Below the pieces are notes generated by a model. That model made no database searches and was not told the origin of the DNA. It saw nothing but the letters and a program-made list of their open reading frames with translations. Shown piece after piece: positions 7,640 through 64,000 of a stretch of DNA of 64,000 nt. How positions within the stretch are numbered: position 1 is the first letter of the stretch; every line of letters starts with the position of its first letter. The DNA lies in assembly GCF_002574545.1 (NCBI RefSeq), contig NZ_NUGT01000028.1, forward strand, positions 1 through 64,000, in the 5' to 3' direction. Origin of the DNA: Bacillus sp. AFS055030 (GTDB taxonomy: Bacteria; Bacillota; Bacilli; Bacillales; Bacillaceae_G). The translations under genes were made by a program, and so were the position numbers.

Positions 7640-9136
7640 ATGACATGGAAAGCATTATCTGAATTTCAATGGGGAACAATGGGTCCTGAGATTATTCTAG
7701 TAGCTGCTGCGCTTCTTCTATTAACTCTTGAACTCTTACTACCTAAAAATGCGAGTCGTAAAATAGTCGGTTGGGTTGGTTTATTAAGCGTTGTTGGATC
7801 ACTTGCATGGTTATTCACACTTTATTCACATGAACCAATAAGTCTATTAGCGGGATCGTTTAAGCTTGATTCATTTGGGCTTCTCTTTAAAACTATTTTA
7901 TTAATCGGAGCAATCTTAGTTTTATTACTTGCTCTAGGAGATAAAGCAATTGCAGAGCGCTCAGAGTACTATACATTGTTTATTACAGCGTTAATTGGAG
8001 CAATGTATATGGCTTCAAGTAGTGATTTAATTACATTATTTGTTGGATTAGAGTTACTTTCGATTTCATCCTATATTCTAGTTGGAATTCAAAAGAGAAG
8101 AGAAGGCTCTTCCGAGGCAGCACTTAAGTATGTAATTAACGGTGGTATATCAACTGCAATAACATTATTCGGATTAAGCTATACTTATGGCTTAACAGGA
8201 ACAACAAACATTACTGAAATGAATTTGGCTCTTCAACAAGGTATTCCAAGCAGTAATGAGTTTCTTATGATCATAGCATTTGTGTTAGTATTTGTAGGAT
8301 TATCATTTAAACTTGCATCTGTTCCGTTCCATATGTGGGCGCCAGATGTTTATGAAGGCGCACCAACACCTGTAACAGCATTCTTAGCAACAGTTTCAAA
8401 AACAGGTGGGTTTATCATCGTACTTCGCATCTTCTTAGCAATTTTTACTGGTGCATTATTGATGAAGGAACAAAAATCTGTATTTGAAGTAATGCAACCA
8501 GTTGTTGCTACATTGGCTGCGTTATCGATGATTATTGGTAATACAATTGCTTTAAAACAAAACAGTCTAAAGCGCATACTTGCATACTCAGGTATTGCAC
8601 ATGGAGGTTATGTTCTAGTCGCATTTGTAAGTATTTCACCATTCATGTTTGAGGGGATCTGGTTTTATTTATTAACTTATACATTCATGACAATTGGTAC
8701 TTTAACAATCGTCTACAATGTACAACAACAAAGGGGATCTGACTCTTTATCATCATTTGCAGGGCTAATTAAAACAAATCCATTTTTAGCGATTACAATG
8801 ACAATATTTGTTTTATCGCTAGCAGGTATTCCATTAACTGCAGGGTTTATAGGAAAGTTAAATATTTTCTTGGGAGCTTTTGTCCAAGTTAAAGGATATT
8901 ATGTACTAGGTGGAATTCTACTATTAACTACAGTAGTATCTTATTTTTACTATTTCGGCATCCTTCAAAATATCTTCTTTAGAAGTGGTGAAGAACGTAA
9001 AATAGTACTTCCAAAGACACATCTTTTCGTTATATTGGTATGTGCTATCCTAACAATTGTATTAGGTATTAAACCATCTTTAGCTTTAGATGTATTTCAT
9101 AAGCTAGACATTGTGAAAGACTTCTTTATGGCGTAA
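7640..9136 (+). CDS. nuoN: NADH-quinone oxidoreductase subunit N
   Basis: Third antiporter-like proton-pumping subunit and last gene of the operon. Motifs: LFVGLELLSISSYILVGIQ (Glu), FKLASVPFHMWAPDVYEGAP (Lys) and AYSGIAHGGYVLVAF. 498 aa with about 14 predicted helices. A strong terminator follows at 9151. Confidence 0.96.
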   Translation: MTWKALSEFQWGTMGPEIILVAAALLLLTLELLLPKNASRKIVGWVGLLSVVGSLAWLFTLYSHEPISLLAGSFKLDSFGLLFKTILLIGAILVLLLALGDKAIAERSEYYTLFITALIGAMYMASSSDLITLFVGLELLSISSYILVGIQKRREGSSEAALKYVINGGISTAITLFGLSYTYGLTGTTNITEMNLALQQGIPSSNEFLMIIAFVLVFVGLSFKLASVPFHMWAPDVYEGAPTPVTAFLATVSKTGGFIIVLRIFLAIFTGALLMKEQKSVFEVMQPVVATLAALSMIIGNTIALKQNSLKRILAYSGIAHGGYVLVAFVSISPFMFEGIWFYLLTYTFMTIGTLTIVYNVQQQRGSDSLSSFAGLIKTNPFLAITMTIFVLSLAGIPLTAGFIGKLNIFLGAFVQVKGYYVLGGILLLTTVVSYFYYFGILQNIFFRSGEERKIVLPKTHLFVILVCAILTIVLGIKPSLALDVFHKLDIVKDFFMA

Positions 9137-13189: not shown

Positions 13190-14809
13190 CTATTGCTTTT
13201 GGGCATATTTATAATAAAAATAGCCAACAAATGGACGTACCTTTATGTTTTTTACATTTGATTTTTGCAAGTATACGTAGCCAGCTTGGTAAACTGGAGC
13301 AATCGCAGCATCATCTAGTAAAAGGTCTTCAGCATTATGAAGCAGTTGAGTACGTTCTGATTCGTTTTGTAAGCTGATTGTATTTGCTTTTTGAACAAAT
13401 TGATCATACTGAGCGTTTTGATAGTTTAATACATTTAAAGCTGATTTAGATGTAAACAATTCTAAATAAGTCGTTGGATCCGGATAATCTGCACCCCATG
13501 TATCTAGAGAAAGGTCGTAGTTTCCTTGTTGACGTAATTCAAATTTTTGTTGTGCAGGTTGTACGACAATATTCACTGTTAAACCTTTTAAATTTGTTTC
13601 TAATTGTGATTTTAAATATTCACCGATTTTACGCGAAGTATTGTTATCACTTACTAGTAATGAAATTGTAGCCTCTGATTTACTAAGCTCAGATAAAGCT
13701 TCTTTAAATAGTGTTTTTGCCTCCTTTAGACTTACTGTAGAAGGATGAGATGTTGAGCTAACAAAATCCACACCTTTAGAGTTTTTTACTAAACCTTTAG
13801 GAATAATTCGATCAGTAGGAATAGAACCATCGTTTAATAGCGTTGTACTAATGTCCTCTTTATTAAAACCGTTTGCGATTGCCTTACGCATTTTTTGATT
13901 TGATAAAAATGGGTTTTTTTGATTAAAGCTGATATAAGAGACAATTGGCATAGCTAATTTGTTTAATTCTTTATTCCCTTTATAACGATCGATCACATTA
14001 GAATCAATAATCGCTTGGTCAAGTTCACCAGTTTCATAAAGATTAACTGCAGTTGTTGTTTCTTTCATGATTTTCACGTCGATTTTATTTACATGGACAT
14101 TCTTTTTATCATAGTATTGTGGATTTTTTTCCATTGTAAAGCCAGCTTCATGTTCCCATTTACTTACAACGTAAGGGCCATTATATAAAGTTGTATTTGC
14201 TTCTAGACCATATTTGTTACCTTGCTCCTTAACGAATTTTTCATTTAACGGGAAGAACATCGGTAAACTTGTCAGTTGAATGAAATATGGGATCGGGCGT
14301 TCAAGTTTAATTTGTAATGTTTTATCATCTATTGCAGTTACCCCGAGTTTATCGACTGGCAACTTTCCTTGGTTAATTTCTTTTGCATTTTCAATATCGT
14401 ATAAATCGTAAGCAAACTGAGCTTTAGTTTTTGGGTCAATTGCACGTTTCATTGCAAAAACAAAATCTTTTGCTGTTACAGGGTCCCCGTTTGAATATTT
14501 GGCATCTCTTAATGTAAATGTATAAACTTTGCCATCTGTACTAACTTTATGTGACAAAGCAGCAGCGGGAACGTATTCTCCTTTTTCATTTGGCATATAG
14601 AGACCTTCCATTACACTATTAAGTGCGTTTAATGAAGGTCCATCTAAAGCTAGTGAACTATCAAGACTTACAACATCTGAAGTATCCATTAAATGTAGTG
14701 TGTGATCATCTGACTTAGAAACTGTCTGATTTGATTGTTGTCCACAGCCTGTTAGTGCCAATGTGAGTAATAAACTAATTGATACGAATTTTTTCTTAGT
14801 AAATATCAT
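13190..14809 (-). CDS. Oligopeptide ABC transporter substrate-binding lipoprotein (OppA/DppE family)
   Basis: Extracytoplasmic solute-binding protein (SBP family 5) for peptides, anchored by a lipid at Cys22 (lipobox LTGC). Motifs typical of OppA include YSNGDPVTAKDFVFAMKRA, GPYVVSKWEHE and WGADYPDPTTYLELF. 539 aa, full length. No permease or ATPase genes are adjacent, so it must use a transporter encoded elsewhere. AAGGAGAG precedes the ATG by about 10 bases. The gene is preceded by a T-box leader that reads as tRNA-Trp-specific, implying induction on tryptophan starvation. Confidence 0.9.
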   Translation of the reverse strand: MIFTKKKFVSISLLLTLALTGCGQQSNQTVSKSDDHTLHLMDTSDVVSLDSSLALDGPSLNALNSVMEGLYMPNEKGEYVPAAALSHKVSTDGKVYTFTLRDAKYSNGDPVTAKDFVFAMKRAIDPKTKAQFAYDLYDIENAKEINQGKLPVDKLGVTAIDDKTLQIKLERPIPYFIQLTSLPMFFPLNEKFVKEQGNKYGLEANTTLYNGPYVVSKWEHEAGFTMEKNPQYYDKKNVHVNKIDVKIMKETTTAVNLYETGELDQAIIDSNVIDRYKGNKELNKLAMPIVSYISFNQKNPFLSNQKMRKAIANGFNKEDISTTLLNDGSIPTDRIIPKGLVKNSKGVDFVSSTSHPSTVSLKEAKTLFKEALSELSKSEATISLLVSDNNTSRKIGEYLKSQLETNLKGLTVNIVVQPAQQKFELRQQGNYDLSLDTWGADYPDPTTYLELFTSKSALNVLNYQNAQYDQFVQKANTISLQNESERTQLLHNAEDLLLDDAAIAPVYQAGYVYLQKSNVKNIKVRPFVGYFYYKYAQKQ

Positions 14810-14838
14810 TTTATTTTTCTCTCCTTATTTTTGGGTAC

Positions 14839-52279: not shown

Positions 52280-53827
52280 GTGAGAATAAAAAATTCTATA
52301 ATTAATATATTTGCTGGTTTGGGAAATCAGATTGTAATTACACTTTTAAGTTTTATTTCAAGAACGGTGTTTATAAATAGTTTAGGGATTGAATATCTCG
52401 GATTAAATGGACTTCTTACAAATATACTTTCAATGTTAACACTAGCAGAGGCGGGCATAGGGGCTAGTATTATTTATAGTCTATATAAACCAGTAGCGGA
52501 AAATGATCAAGAAAAAATTAATGTACTAATGAAGCTATACAAAAAAGCATATTTTATAATAGCTTTAATTGTATTGCTCCTAGGACTTTCACTAATGCCG
52601 TTTTTGGGGTTCTTTATTAAGGATTCGAATCTCGAAAATGTTAATACCATTTATTTTTTATTTTTACTTAATACTGTTGCACCTTATTTCTATCTTCATA
52701 AGACATCGTTTTTAAATGTTAGTCAGAAAAGTTATATTGTAACAGGCGCTTATACGATCTCCTCAATTATATCTACATGTTTAAAGATTGGTATACTTTA
52801 CTTTACAAAAAATTATATATTGTACTTGGTTATTGATAGTATTGTTACGATAACTACAAGTGTTGCATTAACATATGTAGTTAATAAAATGTACCCATTC
52901 TTAAAAAATAAAGTATTAAATAAGTTAGACTTTGAGACGAAAAATAAAATTATCAAAAATATAAAGGCGATTGTATTACAAAACATTGGGAATTATTTAG
53001 TAATTGGTACAGATAACATAATAATCTCTTCTTTTATTAGCGTTGCAGCTGTAGGACTATACTCCAACTATAATTTACTAATTGAAATTTGTCGAAATTT
53101 TACTTATCAAATTTTCAATAATATGTATCATAGTATTGGAAATTTAGTAGCAATAGAAAACGTGGAGAGGATATACAGTATTTATAAAGTATATATGATG
53201 CTAAACTTTTGGTTATATTCATTCTTTTCAATTTTATTACTTATTGTAATTGAACCGTTCATCAAAATTTGGATAGGTTCTGAGTATCTTATGAGTAAAG
53301 GTGTACTAATAATATTAATGATTATTTTTTATGAAAGAGGTTTGAGGAATGCAATTACAACCGTAAAAACTACTGCGGGTGTTTTTCACGAAGATCGATA
53401 TGCCCCTTTGTGTCAGGCTGTTATAAACCTCATTGCATCTATAATATTAGTTAAGTATTTGGGAATAGCAGGAGTTTTTATTGGAACGCTTATAAGTGTT
53501 TTGCTTGTTCCTTTCTGGACGACTCCATATTTAGTTTTTACAAAAGTTTTTAATAAATCAGTTAACATTTATTATTTAAAATATGTATATTATTTAATCA
53601 TTGGTATTGGAACATATTTTTTAACAAACTTTATATGCGGTTTTATCTTTTTAAACGATATATATAGTTTGTTATTAAAACTTATTATTTGCATAGTTGT
53701 TCCTAATTTAGTTTATATTTTTATTTTTTATAAATCAGAAGAATTTAAGTATTTACTTGATATTTTAAAAAATATTATAGGTTTACTACTTGAGCGTAAT
53801 AGAGCAAATAAGAAATTAATGATGTAA
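52280..53827 (+). CDS. epsK: Oligosaccharide flippase (Wzx, EpsK-like)
   Basis: 515 aa with 12-14 predicted membrane helices, MOP/Polysacc_synt family. The start FAGLGNQIVITLLSFISRTVFINSLGIEYLGLNGL is typical of flippases that move the lipid-linked repeat unit outward. GTG 52280 with GAGAGAAGG upstream. Last gene of the operon, followed by a strong terminator. Confidence 0.88.
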   Translation: MRIKNSIINIFAGLGNQIVITLLSFISRTVFINSLGIEYLGLNGLLTNILSMLTLAEAGIGASIIYSLYKPVAENDQEKINVLMKLYKKAYFIIALIVLLLGLSLMPFLGFFIKDSNLENVNTIYFLFLLNTVAPYFYLHKTSFLNVSQKSYIVTGAYTISSIISTCLKIGILYFTKNYILYLVIDSIVTITTSVALTYVVNKMYPFLKNKVLNKLDFETKNKIIKNIKAIVLQNIGNYLVIGTDNIIISSFISVAAVGLYSNYNLLIEICRNFTYQIFNNMYHSIGNLVAIENVERIYSIYKVYMMLNFWLYSFFSILLLIVIEPFIKIWIGSEYLMSKGVLIILMIIFYERGLRNAITTVKTTAGVFHEDRYAPLCQAVINLIASIILVKYLGIAGVFIGTLISVLLVPFWTTPYLVFTKVFNKSVNIYYLKYVYYLIIGIGTYFLTNFICGFIFLNDIYSLLLKLIICIVVPNLVYIFIFYKSEEFKYLLDILKNIIGLLLERNRANKKLMM

Positions 53828-56533: not shown

Positions 56534-57526
56534 TTAATTAGATTGAAATACAAAATTACGAACTTCTAAAAAAGAATGTCCAATCTTATCATAACTAAAA
56601 AATTGATAATCAATAAAATCGACATACTTACTTAGCCTTCTATTTTTAGGGTACCTAATATTATCAAACCTCCAATAAGTAGTAGATCTTTTAAGTTTTA
56701 ACTCCTTAATATTATCAAGTTCAGGAAACAAACCATAAACAATAGACAGTGTACGAAGCATTCTCTTCAGTGTCTCATGTGAAGCAGCATCTTGAAACAA
56801 TTTCTCATAATCTACCTTTTCGCCTAATATATAGATCAGTTGCATAATATCAAGAAAATACTTTAAAGAATCTAAATTATGTCTCCAACCATGTAAACAA
56901 ATCATATAAAATGTATGATATTCTGATAGCTCATATATATAATTATAGTTTTGCAATGGTTGTGCATTATTCCAAAAGTCTTCTATATCTATACTCGAAG
57001 TATCCTCCCTCATAATATTCCAATGTATTTCTACTGTTAATGGGATCGGAGAATTTGGCAACCTCTTACTAAAACTACAGTGAAAATGAGATGGAATAGG
57101 ATCTTGATCAATAATAAATCCAAGTGATTTTATTAGTTCAATAGCCTGGTTAATATTATTTGGCTTAATTAATATATCTATATCAGATGTCGGTCTGGCT
57201 CCTATATTTTCAAAGTATTTTTCCGCAAATGTTACACCTTTTAAAGGAATTGTTATGATCCCACTTTTATCAAATAAAGATGCAATTTTTTCCCATTCGT
57301 TTTTAATAAAAATATTTTGATATAACACTTTTGTGTAGTTCTTTTTAAGGCTTTCTTGGAAAAAAAGTGGTGTTTGTTCAAGTAAATTATGTTTTTTCAA
57401 TAGATAATAGATTTGTCCAGAAATTGAAAAAAATTCAATGTCTTCTAGTAGTTGTTCATAAGATATTGATTCAATAGGTAGCGTTGGTGTCTGGCTATAT
57501 ATTGACTTTAACAATTTTATTATCAA
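56534..57526 (-). CDS. Nucleotidyltransferase-family protein of a RiPP operon
   Basis: 330 aa, PF14907-like uncharacterised nucleotidyltransferase. The active-site block LKGVTF...GARPTSDIDILI holds D115 and D117, the metal-binding Asp pair of the Pol-beta fold. EIHWNI follows further on, a block often conserved in this family. Last gene of the minus-strand RiPP-like operon. Homologues are often found in lasso-type clusters, but the reaction is not known. It could nucleotidylate the peptide or a partner. Confidence 0.8.
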   Translation of the reverse strand: MIIKLLKSIYSQTPTLPIESISYEQLLEDIEFFSISGQIYYLLKKHNLLEQTPLFFQESLKKNYTKVLYQNIFIKNEWEKIASLFDKSGIITIPLKGVTFAEKYFENIGARPTSDIDILIKPNNINQAIELIKSLGFIIDQDPIPSHFHCSFSKRLPNSPIPLTVEIHWNIMREDTSSIDIEDFWNNAQPLQNYNYIYELSEYHTFYMICLHGWRHNLDSLKYFLDIMQLIYILGEKVDYEKLFQDAASHETLKRMLRTLSIVYGLFPELDNIKELKLKRSTTYWRFDNIRYPKNRRLSKYVDFIDYQFFSYDKIGHSFLEVRNFVFQSN

Positions 57527-57567
57527 GGTAATTCCCTCGTTTCAATAGTGAAATACAAAATGTTGAT

Positions 57568-59391
57568 TTAAACTTGAGCTTTCATTTTTAATGTGTTTTT
57601 TTCACTAGGCTTTTGTTTAATTTTTGTACCGTGCAGTTTGCGGTATTGTCCCTCTACTGAAATAAGTTCATGATGTTTACCAATTTGAACTATTTTTCCG
57701 TTTTCAATGACAACAATCATATCAGCGTTTTCAATTGTTGAGAGCCTATGTGCAATGACGAGAGTTGTACGGTTGAGTTTTAAAAAGTCGAGTGATTCTT
57801 TTACTTCTCTTTCTGTTTCGTTATCAAGGGCAGAAGTTGCCTCGTCGAGCAATAGGATAGGAGCATTTTTTAAAATAGCACGTGCAATTGCTAGTCGCTG
57901 TTTTTGTCCTCCAGATAATTTTATTCCTCTTTCACCGATTTCGGTGTCGTATCCATCAGGGAGGGAGATGATATATTCGTGAATTTTACTTATAGTTGCA
58001 GCATCGATCATTTCTTTTTCAGTAATATTTGGACGTGCTAATAGTAAATTTTCTCGTATTGTACCTCCGAATAAGAAGGTTTCTTGCGGGACATGAGCCA
58101 TAAGACTTCTTATCTCTGAGAGGGTATGATTCTCAATTGATATGTCATTGATTGCAACAGTTCCAAACTGTGGCTGATAAAGCCCTTGCAGAAGATTAAA
58201 TATCGTTGTTTTTCCTGCTCCACTTGAACCTACTAAAGCAGTTACTTTTCCAACAGGAATTTGTAAGGTGAAATCTCTAAGCACCTTAATATCCTCGTTG
58301 TATCCAAATGTAACATTTTGAAATTCAATCGAATGAATGTTGTGTTTAGGTACTGAATAGGATGCTAACTTTGCCGATTCTGTAGGTGAATCTATTATTT
58401 TCGAAATCCTCTCTAATGCTGTAGCAGCTCTTTGAAAGCTCGCCCATTGCCCTGCTAAACCAGTTAATGGGTAAACTAAATGATCAACTAGATTGATATA
58501 AGATAATAACGAACCAACTGTTAACATTTTTTGAGAGACAAAATAAGCTCCTAAACATAAGCTAATTAAAAATGTTATAGCGCTGGCTGCCCGACTGCCA
58601 GAAATAAACCATCCACGTAGTTTTGTATTTTTAAGTTCTAGTGCGAACAGTTCTTCATTTTGTTTGACATATTTTTTATACATGAGTTTTTCTAGAGTAA
58701 AGGAGCGGATCATGGTGAATCCATGAAATGTTTCACTTAATAAATTATTAGTACTACCTATTAAATCGTGTATCATTCGACTATTATTTCGTAACAATAT
58801 TCCAAAAAGAGCACTAATAAAAATAGCAATAGGTGCAAATACAATGCTTATTAGACATAATTTCCAATTGATATTAAATAAAAAAATAAAAACAGCAATA
58901 TAAACGAAAGGTAATCTAATTAAATTAATTAAGCTACTACCGATTACACCATCGATACTGTATACATCATTTGTAAAATGAGAGATTAAATCCCCAGTAC
59001 GAAGATTGGAAATATTTTTTGTAGGAAGTCGTAAAACATGCTTAAACAGCATAGCTTTAAAATCTCGTTTTACGCCACTTGTTGAGATTGTTTCCAAATA
59101 AATATTGTAATAGGTTGAAATGAGGCTCAAAATAATAAGTCCAAAACCAGTTGGAATAAGCCATTTCAGTTTGTTTAGCTCACCTTGTACTGCAGCGTCT
59201 GTGATTTTCCCAAAAAACCAAGCATATGCTAGCATTAAACAGATATCAATTACTAATAAGAAAAGAAGACCCATATAGGCCCTTCTGTGGTTTAAAATAT
59301 ATGGACTTAGTAATTTGAAACTTCTTCTAATATCTTCAACTGAAAAATACTTGTTTAAGTCTAAACGTTTCTTTAAGGGTTGAAAGTTCAT
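57568..59391 (-). CDS. ABC exporter (fused membrane and ATPase domains)
   Basis: 607 aa with six membrane helices in the first about 330 residues, then the ATPase: Walker A GSSGAGKT (388-395), signature LSGGQ (492-496), Walker B ILLLDE (512-517). There is no C39 peptidase domain at the N-terminus, so leader removal must be done by another protein, probably the S26 peptidase encoded just upstream. Likely exporter (D protein) of the modified peptide. Confidence 0.9.
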   Translation of the reverse strand: MNFQPLKKRLDLNKYFSVEDIRRSFKLLSPYILNHRRAYMGLLFLLVIDICLMLAYAWFFGKITDAAVQGELNKLKWLIPTGFGLIILSLISTYYNIYLETISTSGVKRDFKAMLFKHVLRLPTKNISNLRTGDLISHFTNDVYSIDGVIGSSLINLIRLPFVYIAVFIFLFNINWKLCLISIVFAPIAIFISALFGILLRNNSRMIHDLIGSTNNLLSETFHGFTMIRSFTLEKLMYKKYVKQNEELFALELKNTKLRGWFISGSRAASAITFLISLCLGAYFVSQKMLTVGSLLSYINLVDHLVYPLTGLAGQWASFQRAATALERISKIIDSPTESAKLASYSVPKHNIHSIEFQNVTFGYNEDIKVLRDFTLQIPVGKVTALVGSSGAGKTTIFNLLQGLYQPQFGTVAINDISIENHTLSEIRSLMAHVPQETFLFGGTIRENLLLARPNITEKEMIDAATISKIHEYIISLPDGYDTEIGERGIKLSGGQKQRLAIARAILKNAPILLLDEATSALDNETEREVKESLDFLKLNRTTLVIAHRLSTIENADMIVVIENGKIVQIGKHHELISVEGQYRKLHGTKIKQKPSEKNTLKMKAQV

Positions 59392-59418
59392 AAAAACACT
59401 CCATAAGTAGACAAATCA

Positions 59419-59862
59419 TTAAGAGATCTTGATTTTGTCTAAATAGATTCTAAATAAACGAGATAGAATAGGAAAACGAAGGACTAGATACCCATACAAT
59501 TTAGAAAAATCGTTTCTATTCTTTATTCCTCGGTCATGTATATATTCTAGTTTTCCAATGATCTGACTTTCACTTACTATTTCGTCAAATCCAAGGTTTG
59601 AATCTCCTTTAAAAAGAAAAGACTTTTTATCATGATTAATAAATGTTTTATGTAATCTGTGAGCAACTAGCTGGCCATTTGTATTATAAAATAATACAAT
59701 TTCTCCTGTTTTTAAAAGGGTAGGCTTTTTTTCAATAAACCTACATATATCTCCTTCTTGAATATAGGGGAACATACTCTTACCTAATGCCGGCAAATCG
59801 ATCCAACCTTTTTTACTCATGGTACTTTTAATGAGAGCTACAATTTCTTGATTAGCTTGCAT
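59419..59862 (-). CDS. S24/S26 signal-peptidase-like protease, ER type, without membrane anchor
   Basis: 147 aa. LPALGKSMFPYIQEGD gives the nucleophile S29. VAHRL gives H68 at the place where ER-type/SipW signal peptidases have His and bacterial LepB has Lys. FLFKGDSN gives D87. No N-terminal transmembrane segment is seen, which is unusual for S26 and suggests a cytosolic or peripheral maturation protease. It overlaps the PqqD-like gene by 11 bases. Best guess: leader peptidase of this operon. Confidence 0.78.
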   Translation of the reverse strand: MQANQEIVALIKSTMSKKGWIDLPALGKSMFPYIQEGDICRFIEKKPTLLKTGEIVLFYNTNGQLVAHRLHKTFINHDKKSFLFKGDSNLGFDEIVSESQIIGKLEYIHDRGIKNRNDFSKLYGYLVLRFPILSRLFRIYLDKIKIS

Positions 59863-60121
59863 AATTGATTAAATTTAATGTTAATAATTCAGATAGAAAA
59901 TGGTGAATATCTTCTTCTACTGATTCGTTTACTTCCTCGTATTCTTGTTTTATAGCTTGTACAAGTGTATCTATACTTTGTGGTTGCTTTAATAATGACC
60001 AGCAAAATCCACCAATTTCATTAATTTTCGTAACAGTGAATTTGTCAGTATTTAAAATAATCCATTCATTATCAAAGTTAGTCGTTACATCGTATTGTTC
60101 GTTTCGAATATATTTATCCAT
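59852..60121 (-). CDS. PqqD-type RiPP recognition protein (B1-like)
   Basis: 89 aa, winged-helix RRE fold: DNEWIILNTDKFTVTKINEIGGFCWSLL is the beta-strand/helix-1 part that clamps leader peptides, and SVEEDIHHFLSELLTLNLI is the C-terminal helix. It starts in a TAATG overlap with the kinase gene. In lasso and related systems this protein presents the leader to the modification enzymes. Confidence 0.88.
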   Translation of the reverse strand: MDKYIRNEQYDVTTNFDNEWIILNTDKFTVTKINEIGGFCWSLLKQPQSIDTLVQAIKQEYEEVNESVEEDIHHFLSELLTLNLINYAS

Positions 60122-60906
60122 TAAGAAATCAACTCCCAGAATGTATTGTTTTTTTGAAAATAAAGATTATAAATTGGAACTTTGATTATTAATGTTTCAA
60201 GAAGCTTTACAATCTTTTTTGTTTCAGATGGATCATGTGCCCAGTAAAAAATTTTATCCATTAATTGTAAGAAACCATCTGCTTTATTTATTTGGACTCT
60301 ATTATTTTCGAGGGATTGGTGTAATAATTGTACACTTGCCAAAGAACTGCTTTTTATTAATCCCGTTGATTTAATTTCACTTCGGAACGGAGAGTCATAT
60401 ACAGTTATTTCATTTTGTGTAATTTTAACAAGGGTAGCTTCATCCGAAAGTAGCATTCTTGGATGAGATAACTTTGCTGCCGTTGACTTACCTGCTCCGG
60501 ATTGTCCTGCAAAAATATGTGCTCTTTCATTTTCAATTGCACAAGAAGAATGGATCAGTAACCCCCAGTTATGGTAAACAATATAAGAACTATATAGATT
60601 TGTTAATGCATGCTTTAGTGCTAATTTATTATGAACATAAATAGTAGCTACCTTATATTCCTCATCTGTTTCAATTAAATAATCAGCTCTTTGAAAGTAA
60701 ATTTTTTTTTGTTCTTTTGTAATTTTTATATTGTAATCCACAAACGGTACTCCGTAACCTTTTTTAATATGAATTCTTATATGGGGTTTTTGGTCATGAA
60801 GTGAGAGTAAATAATCATTCTCATTAAAAATTGAAGTAGCAAATTCTATATTATTACTAGTTATTTGAATTAAGTGTTCGCCTATAAGTGCATGAATTGT
60901 ATCCAT
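60121..60906 (-). CDS. HPr-kinase-like protein of a RiPP operon
   Basis: 261 aa. Walker A GQSGAGKS (134-141) and a Walker-B-like segment LLSDEATLV (about 152-160) are those of HprK-related proteins. The N-terminal HPr kinase regulatory domain is missing. In the paeninodin system a related kinase phosphorylates the peptide's last Ser. Here the encoded precursor ends Lys-Pro, so the target is unclear. AAGGAGA sits seven bases before the ATG. Confidence 0.85.
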   Translation of the reverse strand: MDTIHALIGEHLIQITSNNIEFATSIFNENDYLLSLHDQKPHIRIHIKKGYGVPFVDYNIKITKEQKKIYFQRADYLIETDEEYKVATIYVHNKLALKHALTNLYSSYIVYHNWGLLIHSSCAIENERAHIFAGQSGAGKSTAAKLSHPRMLLSDEATLVKITQNEITVYDSPFRSEIKSTGLIKSSSLASVQLLHQSLENNRVQINKADGFLQLMDKIFYWAHDPSETKKIVKLLETLIIKVPIYNLYFQKNNTFWELIS

Positions 60907-60945
60907 TGATAGTCTCCTTGTAGTAAATTAACTAGTAGCTTAATT

Positions 60946-60973
60946 AAGAGAGCCAAATAAAAATGACTCTCCT
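60946..60973 (-). promoter_or_regulatory. Hairpin between the minus-strand precursor and kinase genes
   Basis: On the transcript AGGAGAGTC pairs with GGCTCTCTT (two wobble pairs). No T-run, so it is more likely an mRNA-stabilising or processing stem that raises precursor over enzyme levels. Confidence 0.5.
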
Positions 60974-60981
60974 AACCTTGT

Positions 60982-61209
60982 TTAAGGCTTCCCGTGGCCA
61001 TGACCATTCCCGTGACCAGGAGTTCCTGCTCCGCCTGGAGTAGTGTTCGGATTACCTGGAGGGAAGTTAATTCCACCGTTTCCATGACCTGGATGATCTT
61101 GATTACCTTTGCCAGGATTCCAGCTTTGAGCTGTTTCAAATCTTACCTGTTGGTGATCCAAGATACTAGGTCTCTGGTAAACTTTAGCCTCAGTCTTTGT
61201 GCTATTCAT
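60982..61209 (-). CDS. Candidate RiPP precursor, Gly/His/Pro/Asn-rich
   Basis: 75 aa. Start ATG 61209 has GGAG seven bases upstream; an ATG 14 codons earlier lies in the operator and has no RBS. The leader-like part holds VYQRPSILDHQQVRFETA, which fits the Y-x-x-P recognition motif used by PqqD-type proteins, and is followed by QSWNPG. The rest (31-75) has PGHGNG twice (40-45 and 64-69), five His and no Cys. It is the first gene of an operon of kinase, RRE, protease, exporter and nucleotidyltransferase. No residue pattern fits a lasso ring convincingly. Confidence 0.7.
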   Translation of the reverse strand: MNSTKTEAKVYQRPSILDHQQVRFETAQSWNPGKGNQDHPGHGNGGINFPPGNPNTTPGGAGTPGHGNGHGHGKP

Positions 61210-61733: not shown

Positions 61734-63665
61734 ATGAGTGCAATAACTGGTATTATTCATTTTACTAACGAGCCTGTCTCTATTGAACATGGTAATGGAT
61801 TATTGAAGGCTCTAGAAAAATATCCTGCAGATGATGTTCAAGTATGGCATAAAGAAAATGTTCTCTTTGGCTGTCACTCTCAGTGGATCACACCTGAGTC
61901 CATTGGTGAGCAATTACCCTATTATGATTATAATAGAGGATTAACGATTACAGCCGATGCAATTATTGATAATCGAGAGGAATTATTTGAAAGATTAAAT
62001 ATAAATGAAAATTATAGAAAGACGTTGCCTGACAGTCAGTTGATATTATTGGCGTACGAAAAGTGGGGAGAGGACTCACCCAAATATTTAATAGGAGACT
62101 TTGCTTTTATAATTTGGGATGAACGTAAACGTTTACTGTTTGGAGCAAGAGATTTTTCTGGTAGTAGAACACTTTACTATTATAACAATCAACGACAATT
62201 TGCTTTTTGTACGATTATGAATCCTTTATTTACTTTGCCGTATATTGAAAAAAAATTAAATGAGCAGTGGTTAGCTGAATTCATTGCGATTCCTGGTAAC
62301 TTTGAATCTGTTAACACTTCTTCGACTGTCTATAATTTAATAAGACAGATACCCCCATCTCACACAATCAAAATTAAGGATGGAAAAGAAACTCTTACTC
62401 GATATTGTAAATTTGAAAGTAGTGAAAAATTAAAACTAAAGTCAGATCATGAGTATGAAGAAGCATTTAGAGAAGTGTATCATAATGCAGTAAAGGCGCG
62501 TTTGCGAACTCACAGACAGGTTGGTGCTCATCTAAGTGGAGGACTTGATTCAGGTTCAGTTGTAGGTTTTGCAGCAAGAGATTTACAAAAAGAACAAAAA
62601 CAACTTTATACATATAGTTATGTTCCAGTAGATGGATTTATAGACTGGACATATAAAAATAGGATTGCGGATGAAAGACCTTATATTCAGTCGACTGTAC
62701 AACATATAGGAAATATAAATGACCATTATTTGGACTTTGCAGAACGAAACCCTTTAACTGAAGTTGATGATTGGCTCGATGTTTTAGAAATGCCATACAA
62801 GTTTTTCGAAAACACATTTTGGTTAAGAGGGATCTATGAGAAGGCTCAGCAAAACGGAGTAGGTGTTCTTTTAAACGGACAACGAGGGAATTGGACCGTA
62901 TCTTGGGGGCCAGTTTTGGATTACCAAGCTATGCTACTAAAAAAGTTGAACTGGATTCAGTTTTTCAAAGAACTCCATTTATATAGCAAAAACTTGGGAG
63001 TAAAAAAATCAAGAGTTTTCTCTGTAGTTAGGAAAAAAGCATTTCCAGCTTTGAATCGTTTAACTACTAATGAAGATTATTTTCCTATCATAATTAATCC
63101 GCAATTTGCAAAAGAAAACGGTGTTCTTGAAACACTACAAGAGCATGGAATTGATATGAAGGGATATTCTACCTTAAATGCATATGACATGAGAAAGGAA
63201 CAATTTGATAAATTGTACTACTGGAGTATTAATGGTACTTATGGAACAAAATTGTCCTTACGTCATTCTTTATGGGACCGTGATCCAACAAATGATTTAC
63301 GTGTAATAAAATTTTGCTTAGCTGTTCCTGAAGAACAATATGTTCAAAATGGTCTGGATCGATCGTTAATTAGAAGGTCAACTAAAACTTTACTTCCCGA
63401 TAAAGTTAGGTTGAACCAACGTGTTAGAGGAGTTCAAGGGGCAGATGGGGTGCACCGGATGGCATCTTTCTGGCAGCAATTTATAGATGAACTTAGACAA
63501 CTTTGTAAGGATTCTATTGCTTCCGATATTTTTAATATAGAGGTTCTTAAGAAATCAATTGAAAAAATTGAAGGTAATCCTCGTCCAGAATTTGTATTTG
63601 ATTTAGACTTTAGATTTTTAATGCGTAGTCTAATTGTTTACCGATTTATTAAAAATGTCATTTGA
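61734..63665 (+). CDS. Lasso peptide isopeptide bond-forming cyclase (asparagine-synthase-like, C protein)
   Basis: 643 aa. An N-terminal class-II-amidotransferase-like domain (about 1-200) starts MSAITGI and so lacks the catalytic Cys2 of true asparagine synthases. The AsnB-type synthetase domain has the PP-loop AHLSGGLDSGS (about residues 260-270). This combination is that of lasso cyclases, which adenylate the ring Asp/Glu side chain and join it to the core N-terminus. GGGGGAG precedes the ATG. First gene of the plus-strand lasso operon, 15 bases before the precursor. Confidence 0.92.
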   Translation: MSAITGIIHFTNEPVSIEHGNGLLKALEKYPADDVQVWHKENVLFGCHSQWITPESIGEQLPYYDYNRGLTITADAIIDNREELFERLNINENYRKTLPDSQLILLAYEKWGEDSPKYLIGDFAFIIWDERKRLLFGARDFSGSRTLYYYNNQRQFAFCTIMNPLFTLPYIEKKLNEQWLAEFIAIPGNFESVNTSSTVYNLIRQIPPSHTIKIKDGKETLTRYCKFESSEKLKLKSDHEYEEAFREVYHNAVKARLRTHRQVGAHLSGGLDSGSVVGFAARDLQKEQKQLYTYSYVPVDGFIDWTYKNRIADERPYIQSTVQHIGNINDHYLDFAERNPLTEVDDWLDVLEMPYKFFENTFWLRGIYEKAQQNGVGVLLNGQRGNWTVSWGPVLDYQAMLLKKLNWIQFFKELHLYSKNLGVKKSRVFSVVRKKAFPALNRLTTNEDYFPIIINPQFAKENGVLETLQEHGIDMKGYSTLNAYDMRKEQFDKLYYWSINGTYGTKLSLRHSLWDRDPTNDLRVIKFCLAVPEEQYVQNGLDRSLIRRSTKTLLPDKVRLNQRVRGVQGADGVHRMASFWQQFIDELRQLCKDSIASDIFNIEVLKKSIEKIEGNPRPEFVFDLDFRFLMRSLIVYRFIKNVI

Positions 63666-63680
63666 AAGGGGGTGAAACAG

Positions 63681-63806
63681 ATGAAAAAAGAGTGGAAAAA
63701 ACCAGAATTAGAAGTTCTTGATATTAATATGACAATGGCTGGTCCAGGTCATAAAATTCCTGATGCAGTGCAGCCAGATCCAGATGATCCAGTAAAATAT
63801 AGTTAA
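63681..63806 (+). CDS. Lasso peptide precursor, paeninodin-like
   Basis: 41 aa. AAAGGGGGTG six bases before ATG 63681. Leader (1-19) MKKEWKKPELEVLDINMTM has W-x-x-P-x-L and Thr at position -2, as in paeninodin-family leaders. Core (20-41) begins AGPGHKIPDAVQPD, so A1 can bond to D9 in a nine-residue ring; the tail ends KYS. The terminal Ser is the residue phosphorylated in paeninodin. Relative to paeninodin as I recall it, the ring carries His-Lys-Ile in place of Thr-Ser-Thr. Confidence 0.93.
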   Translation: MKKEWKKPELEVLDINMTMAGPGHKIPDAVQPDPDDPVKYS

Positions 63807-63841
63807 ATTATGAAATTATAGTTAATAATATTTTTCAATTG

Positions 63842-63867
63842 CCCTTATATGTTAATACATATGAGGG
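63842..63867 (+). promoter_or_regulatory. Hairpin between the lasso precursor and kinase genes
   Basis: CCCTTATATGT pairs with ACATATGAGGG (one G-T pair, loop TAAT), followed by TTTATTAAAT. Probably a partial terminator or 3'-end stabiliser that favours precursor mRNA. Confidence 0.6.
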
Positions 63868-63906
63868 TTTATTAAATCATTTTATTTTTACATATTGTGT
63901 GGAGTG

Positions 63907-64000
63907 ATGAATGTGATAAACATTAAAAATAAAATCCTTTACCGAGCATTTGGAATGAAAATAAGATCTGAGATACCTCTACCGGAGCTTACTCCGTCAA
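63907..64000 (+). CDS. Probable lasso peptide kinase, N-terminus only
   Basis: Runs off the window. Start ATG 63907 or GTG 63913 (GTGGAG upstream fits the GTG better). The visible residues ILYRAFGMKIRSEIPLPELT match the start of HprK-like kinases that follow lasso precursors in paeninodin-type clusters and phosphorylate the terminal Ser. B1, B2 and exporter genes would be expected beyond the edge. Confidence 0.65.
   Translation, partial: MNVINIKNKILYRAFGMKIRSEIPLPELTPS

Follow-up and report, generated by a model that had tools for sequence, protein, structure and literature searches.

The window analysed here, 64,000 nucleotides of Bacillus sp. AFS055030 (contig NZ_NUGT01000028.1, positions 1 to 64,000), contains on its minus strand six genes that very probably form a cluster for a Linear Polyphosphorylated Peptide (LPP), lppA-K-B-S-D-N. 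Judged from the sequence, membership of the LPP family as such is close to certain. The family (lppAKBSDN) was described by Popov et al. (Nat Commun, May 2026, PMC13381572), and a literature search with the phrase 'linear polyphosphorylated peptides' returned no other paper. Because the family has been published, the operon is not a new kind of system; it is an intact additional LPP member, and the proposal in the first-pass annotation that it represents an undescribed class of ribosomally synthesized and post-translationally modified peptide (RiPP) was dropped. The core genes A, K, B, S, D and N are all present together, and the open reading frames (ORFs) and family matches confirm the coordinates and close spacing that had been assigned to them:

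60982..61209, minus strand: LppA-type precursor, 75 aa (ORF; leader profile; homologous ORFs near the kinase)
60121..60906, minus strand: LppK, HprK-like kinase (profile match and conserved residues)
59852..60121, minus strand: LppB, discrete RiPP recognition element (RRE) of the PqqD family (PF05402; PDB match 9x8z)
59419..59862, minus strand: LppS, SipW/archaeal-type leader peptidase, S26 (TIGR02228, 50.9 bits)
57568..59391, minus strand: LppD, MsbA-like ABC exporter (PF00664, PF00005)
56534..57526, minus strand: LppN, NTP_transf_5 transferase with a TTG start (PF14907, E 6.6e-39)

From the precursor to the transferase the intergenic spacings are +75, -1, -11, +27 and +41 nucleotides, and owing to this tight arrangement the six genes look like one operon. 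It includes neither a macrolactam cyclase nor a B2 peptidase, and the cyclase found in the neighbourhood is divergently encoded.

Precursor, processing proteins and proposed pathway

The precursor consists of a leader (residues 1-26) and a core of 49 residues (27-75), contains no cysteine, as had been claimed for it, and is preceded by GGAG ahead of the ATG at 61209. No Pfam or NCBIfam model matched it at E<=1, and a plasmid search with it gave no match. When a profile of 33 other leaders, with the window's own row excluded, was run over the six frames of the window, the precursor was recovered with an E value of 3.3e-13, the next best match having 0.18. The published LPP leader motif is YxxPxVLxHQxIxFETxxS (PMC13381572), and the corresponding segment of the window, YQRPSILDHQQVRFETAQS, agrees with it apart from the substitutions V to I and I to V. 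In the published register the window leader, MNSTKTEAKVYQRPSILDHQQVRFET, has Y-16, P-13, I-11, L-10, F-3, E-2 and T-1, followed by AQS, and three elements can be located:

61168..61179, minus strand: YQRP, the YxxP motif for RRE binding (Y-16 and P-13 in the published numbering; sequence and LppA register)
61123..61140, minus strand: FET/AQS, predicted cleavage after T-1 and phospho-acceptor Ser3 (motif conservation)
60942..60977, minus strand: 14-bp RNA hairpin between the precursor stop and the kinase start (fold z -3.18)

In P. alginolyticus the peptidase cuts the leader after T-1 with the help of the RRE, LppA carries one to four phosphates located on core Ser3, and the product is linear (PMC13381572). 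By analogy, there is a strong inference that the window precursor is cleaved after T26 (T-1), with the predicted cut between 61132 and 61131, and phosphorylation of Ser3 (codon 61123-61125) is strongly expected. A cut after the conserved serine, as given by the -3/-1 rule for signal peptidases, had been considered and was dropped, the same article placing the cut after T-1. Two further parts of the first-pass annotation, a RiPP leader recognised by a PqqD-type RRE and a phosphopeptide with +80 Da products and no ring-forming enzyme of its own, agree with what was shown for this relative, and by analogy should hold for the window.

The RRE of the window matches PF05402 (PqqD; E 1.1e-14), and its best PDB match is LppB (9x8z, E 4.3e-25), with the lasso protein PbaB1 (9x90) at E 6.7e-5. 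It keeps asparagine at the N33 site and aspartate at the D70 site. The former is Asn in all 50 LPP-type RREs including that of the window; at the latter, 36 of them have Asp, 9 Glu, 2 Ala, 2 Ser and one Tyr. In the lasso B1 proteins the N33 site is Gly in 20 of 20 aligned, and the neighbouring lasso B1 of the window has Gly and Gln at the two sites, as does PbaB1. The tyrosine of YxxP is found in 30 of 50 distinct leaders and absent from 20, and is thus common but not universal; its treatment as a strict requirement was abandoned. The F-E-T columns of the leader alignment owe part of their uniformity to the patterns by which precursors and blocks were chosen. The four RREs that carry Ala or Ser at the D70 site (L004, L005, L006 and L051) all go with non-Tyr leaders. 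Covariation is not claimed, since three of them come from one genus (G194, G220 and G286), the fourth, L005, being from Mesobacillus, and since Asp is found at this site in RREs beside several other non-Tyr leaders.

In the kinase, His119, the P-loop (G134 to K140 and S141) and D155-E156 were located; His119, G134, G137, G139, K140, S141 and E156 are kept in 48 of 48 aligned sequences and D155 in 47. Ser29, Phe42, His68 and Asp87 of the peptidase are kept in 50 of 50 aligned, and a PDB sequence search with it gave weak SEC11 matches only (best E 0.12). The exporter reaches 408.5 bits against MsbA_lipidA, below the cut-off of 602. In the transferase K96, G97, R111, D115xD117, E166 and H168 are kept in 48 of 48 aligned. 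Between precursor and kinase, the fold of 60905-60985 has an energy of -20.1 kcal/mol, equalled by 2 of 200 shuffles, and the hairpin is a possible transcript stabiliser or attenuator. A scan for promoters and terminators was uninformative, with 31 promoter-like sites where 29.2 were expected and 2 terminator-like sites where 2.3 were.

The matching residues point to the following pathway. LppB would grip the YxxP leader of the 75-aa precursor, LppK would add one or more phosphates to core Ser3, and LppB would present the FET end to LppS, which would cut after T-1 and release a linear core of 49 residues beginning A-Q-pS-W-N. LppN would then probably modify the phosphate further, with a sugar or a nucleotide, and LppD would export the product. 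The chemistry of LppN, the export and the biological role are inferred only.

Conservation of the operon and variant precursors

A first contig scan with the window kinase returned nine loci, eight of them with the same operon: three from Mesobacillus, one each from Priestia and Neobacillus, two from Cohnella, and one from a record labelled Chryseobacterium, which is probably mislabelled, its contig belonging to the genus that also holds the M. subterraneus contig. The ninth, from Ruminococcus, is only distantly similar; at L012:7505-9161 (plus strand) HprK-like, PqqD-like and S26-like genes stand in a row, preceded by a small acidic ORF; this is a remote version of the kinase, RRE and peptidase arrangement that lacks a YxxP leader.

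The genome samples comprised one genome per species, and the rates that follow are for this reason not comparable with the 80 of 9173 complete Bacilli genomes reported in PMC13381572. At E<=1e-20 the kinase profile had a match in 39 of the 397 genomes sampled from the window's order, and at E<=1e-15 in 8 of the 398 sampled from its class; G000 and G165 occur in both sets. The leader profile matched 38 of the 397 order genomes, all of them among the 39 with the kinase, and none of the 358 kinase-negative genomes; for the one kinase-positive genome without a leader match, G124, the kinase match itself is weak (85.8 bits). The kinase was within about 5 kb for 42 of the 43 leader matches. In a sample of a Paenibacillaceae-like family, 24 of 197 genomes had a leader match, and in 24 of the 27 loci one or more of the five LPP genes lay no further than about 1.5 kb away, while L156-L158 had none within that distance.

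Over 47 loci (a count that leaves out L048-L050, which repeat the contigs of L004, L006 and L008, as well as L080-L082 and L087), all five non-precursor genes were present in 46 by best label, the exception being L064, whose ABC gene scores best to a lasso exporter model. In 44 of them a precursor ORF was recognised by pattern no more than 7 kb from the kinase; L090 and L091 yielded none by pattern within that distance, and in L064 it was the leader profile that gave a match, at a distance of about 5 kb. The check proposed in the first-pass annotation, whether precursor homologues sit beside the same five genes, was thus answered positively.

Several points weigh against the LPP assignment of the window operon. 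The kinase stays far under the cut-offs of HprK-related models: it matches HprK_rel_A at E 2.5e-7 (30.1 bits, cut-off 200). A PDB sequence search with it found no HPr kinase, the best match being an ABC transporter at E 0.011, so that the case for its activity is made by the P-loop and by homology. The peptidase falls just under the TIGR02228 cut-off of 51.85. The native LPP product was not found even in the published strain, and the published host showed no detectable change when lppN was deleted (PMC13381572). The leader count of 38 in 39 overstates sensitivity because the profile was built largely from the genomes tested; the count of 0 in 358 is free of this bias. Finally, the kinase, leader and cyclase counts were taken to come from the same 397 genomes, which is judged and not certain.

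Published LPP clusters hold one to three precursors of 35-200 aa (PMC13381572), and the survey loci include several unusual ones. At L055:10390-10884 (plus strand) and L057:7854-8270 (minus strand) an LPP leader (FETTIS) is fused to a CFI-box-CTERM protein (NF041770, 50.5 and 50.7 bits, cut-off 40), giving products of 164 and 138 aa that adjoin the kinase in divergent orientation. These fusions suggest that the leader can carry larger cargo. At about position 3741 of L064 (G233, plus strand) a leader (FETQVS) is followed by a long acidic tail rich in Asp, Pro and Thr, some 5 kb from the kinase. Six LPP-like precursors in three genomes, three in G334, two in G095 and one in G801, have no serine at core position 3:

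L080:19100-19530, minus strand: Ser3-less type
L082:8979-9122, minus strand: Ser3-less type
L083:4269-4812, plus strand: Ser3-less type
L153 (G801): Ser3-less precursor, with kinase, RRE and peptidase genes within 1.5 kb

They carry His, Leu, Phe or Asn at position 3, and a [K/N]PS motif further on in all six; that the phosphosite has moved is a guess. G334 holds two complete LPP operons and a third kinase. G759 has, in tandem, three or more precursors in which FHA replaces FET (L162:7400-8320, minus strand); three of them have both the [K/N]PS motif and Ser at position 3, and one is without a defined start. In L007 a short leaderless core-like ORF (NPNFTPGGAGEPGKGNK; 7822-7935, plus strand) directly precedes the kinase, and a precursor that has a leader but a different core type is found at 14596-14814, some 6 kb from the kinase. 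In G356 the kinase match contains an in-frame stop (L058:8847-9503, plus strand), and this copy may therefore be broken. In L165 (G322:C43), on a contig other than that of the LPP locus, a 575-aa frame gave a leader-like match (E 1.8e-6) that is probably due to chance; among the LPP genes and the lasso cyclase, the 8.5-kb stretch of this locus contains an ABC gene only. As far as the main text of PMC13381572 goes, the CFI-box and long acidic cargo, the Ser3-less precursors and the non-Tyr leaders appear to extend it; 'CFI' does not occur in that main text, and the variants may be known to its authors.

Neighbouring lasso cluster and the nature of the product

The divergent lasso operon that had been noted beside the RiPP operon is real, its cyclase, precursor, B1 and B2 being matched by profiles. 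It is a paeninodin-type cluster (C, A, K, B1, B2, N, D) at 61734-64000 of the window (plus strand), continuing past the window end in L003:

61734..63665, plus strand: lasso cyclase, outside the LPP operon (NF033535, 396 bits, below the cut-off of 525)
63681..63806, plus strand: lasso precursor with a WKKP (WxxP) leader, core AGPGHKIPD... and C-terminal Ser (NF033524)

The precursor scores 71.8 bits against NF033524 (paeninodin family; cut-off 27), B1 134 bits against NF033536 (cut-off 80) and B2 103 bits against NF033537 (cut-off 33), and the ring is predicted to be AGPGHKIPD. The HprK-like kinase of this cluster reaches 29.7 bits against PF07475, below the cut-off of 33.3, its NTP_transf_5 protein matches at E 9.8e-64, and its ABC gene was identified from its ORF. 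Upstream plus-strand genes encode a glycosyltransferase (PF00534), a GH88-family protein and a beta-helix protein; the protein at 52280-53827 had no Pfam match and may be flippase-like. Paeninodin-type lasso clusters and capsule loci often adjoin LPP clusters (PMC13381572), and the lasso neighbour together with the upstream glycosyltransferase corresponds to this setting.

A refinement of the LPP assignment, to which we give an even chance, is that the product is a phosphate-linked glyco- or nucleotidyl-peptide in which the Ser3 phosphate serves LppN as acceptor. LppN is found in 47 of 47 loci with an invariant DxD and Glu, and its relative PsmN has been linked to the addition of one or two hexoses on the phospho-Ser of pseudomycoidin, nucleotidylation being left open there (PMC9266682), but the silent lppN deletion mentioned above speaks against it. 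A literature search on the PF14907 family with lasso and glycosylation found no paper. A more specific version is unlikely: a capsule-coupled phosphoglycopeptide, with LppN moving a sugar from the neighbouring polysaccharide pathway onto the Ser3 phosphate and the leader machinery also processing the CFI-box and long acidic cargo. If true, a Gly/Pro/His- or Lys-rich peptide would be displayed on or anchored in exopolysaccharide.

The first-pass annotation had also suggested a His/Gly-rich metal-binding peptide, which the window core, with five His in 49 residues and its PGHGNGHGHGKP tail, invites. Among 12 relatives with the same core type, however, the number of His is 0-2 in 11 and 4 in the other, and 10 have 4-7 Lys plus Arg; the His-rich tail belongs to the window precursor, not to the family. 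No gene of the operon matched a metal-related family, apart from one sub-threshold match: against the nickel-SOD maturation protease model the peptidase scores 13 bits (cut-off 63.25). The metal reading is thus unsupported and very improbable.

Least credible of all is that the operon serves the lasso cluster as an accessory, its peptide being cyclised by the neighbouring cyclase. The association itself is clear: a lasso cyclase (E<=1e-60) is present in 30 of 38 LPP-positive genomes against 59 of 359 others (Fisher p 5e-15, kinship ignored), and lasso C or B2 genes occur in the fetched stretch of 19 of 47 loci, in 16 of these on the same strand and upstream of the kinase. Yet 8 of the 38 genomes have no cyclase match at this threshold, so LPP and lasso genes travel together and the cyclase is not needed. 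In lasso peptides an Asp or Glu at core position 7-9 forms the ring, whereas the only acidic residue of the window core after FET is D12, with none at positions 7-9. These two facts together make a borrowed cyclase, as the first-pass annotation had it, unlikely, and the linear published product speaks against it as well. Judged as a lasso system the operon is without a cyclase and B2 peptidase of its own; it has its own peptidase and RRE, and LppB and a lasso RRE each chose their own precursor under competition (PMC13381572). A simple lasso-leader pattern allowing Trp or Tyr gave a hit in 7 of 20 loci, each time with Trp, and in none of the other 13.

Comparison with known systems

LPPs are a very recent RiPP family, to which the window adds an intact member with a lasso cluster as its neighbour. 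The variation seen in the survey (non-Tyr leaders, Ser3-less precursors, CFI-box and long acidic cargo) opens leader recognition, the choice of phosphosite and the range of cargo to direct testing.

HPr-rel-A and SynChlorMet cassettes also combine an HprK-like kinase with a PqqD-like protein, but the scores of the window operon against their models (TIGR04352/04353 and TIGR04249/04248) lie well under the curated cut-offs, the bits and cut-offs being 30.1/200, 15.8/35, 23.4/125 and 31.7/100. LppS shares TIGR02228 similarity and the Ser and His at matching sites with SipW and archaeal signal peptidase I, but acts on an RRE-held leader (PMC13381572) and not on a Sec signal peptide. The paeninodin and pseudomycoidin lasso systems share with the window operon an HprK-like kinase, a discrete RRE, an NTP_transf_5 transferase and an ABC exporter; they differ in having a cyclase, a transglutaminase-like B2 and a WxxP leader, whereas the window operon has neither enzyme and a YxxP leader. 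The lasso kinase targets a C-terminal Ser (PMC9266682), which is absent from the window LPP precursor.

The closest comparison is with the lpp cluster of P. alginolyticus, for which product data are available (PMC13381572). The window operon is divergent from its lasso cluster, unlike that of P. alginolyticus, its core has 49 residues and a His-rich end where that of P. alginolyticus LppA has 45, and the peptidase Asp is residue 87 where it is D93 in P. alginolyticus LppS. Shared by both are the six genes, the leader register, the key residues of RRE and peptidase, the paeninodin-type lasso neighbour and polysaccharide genes close by.

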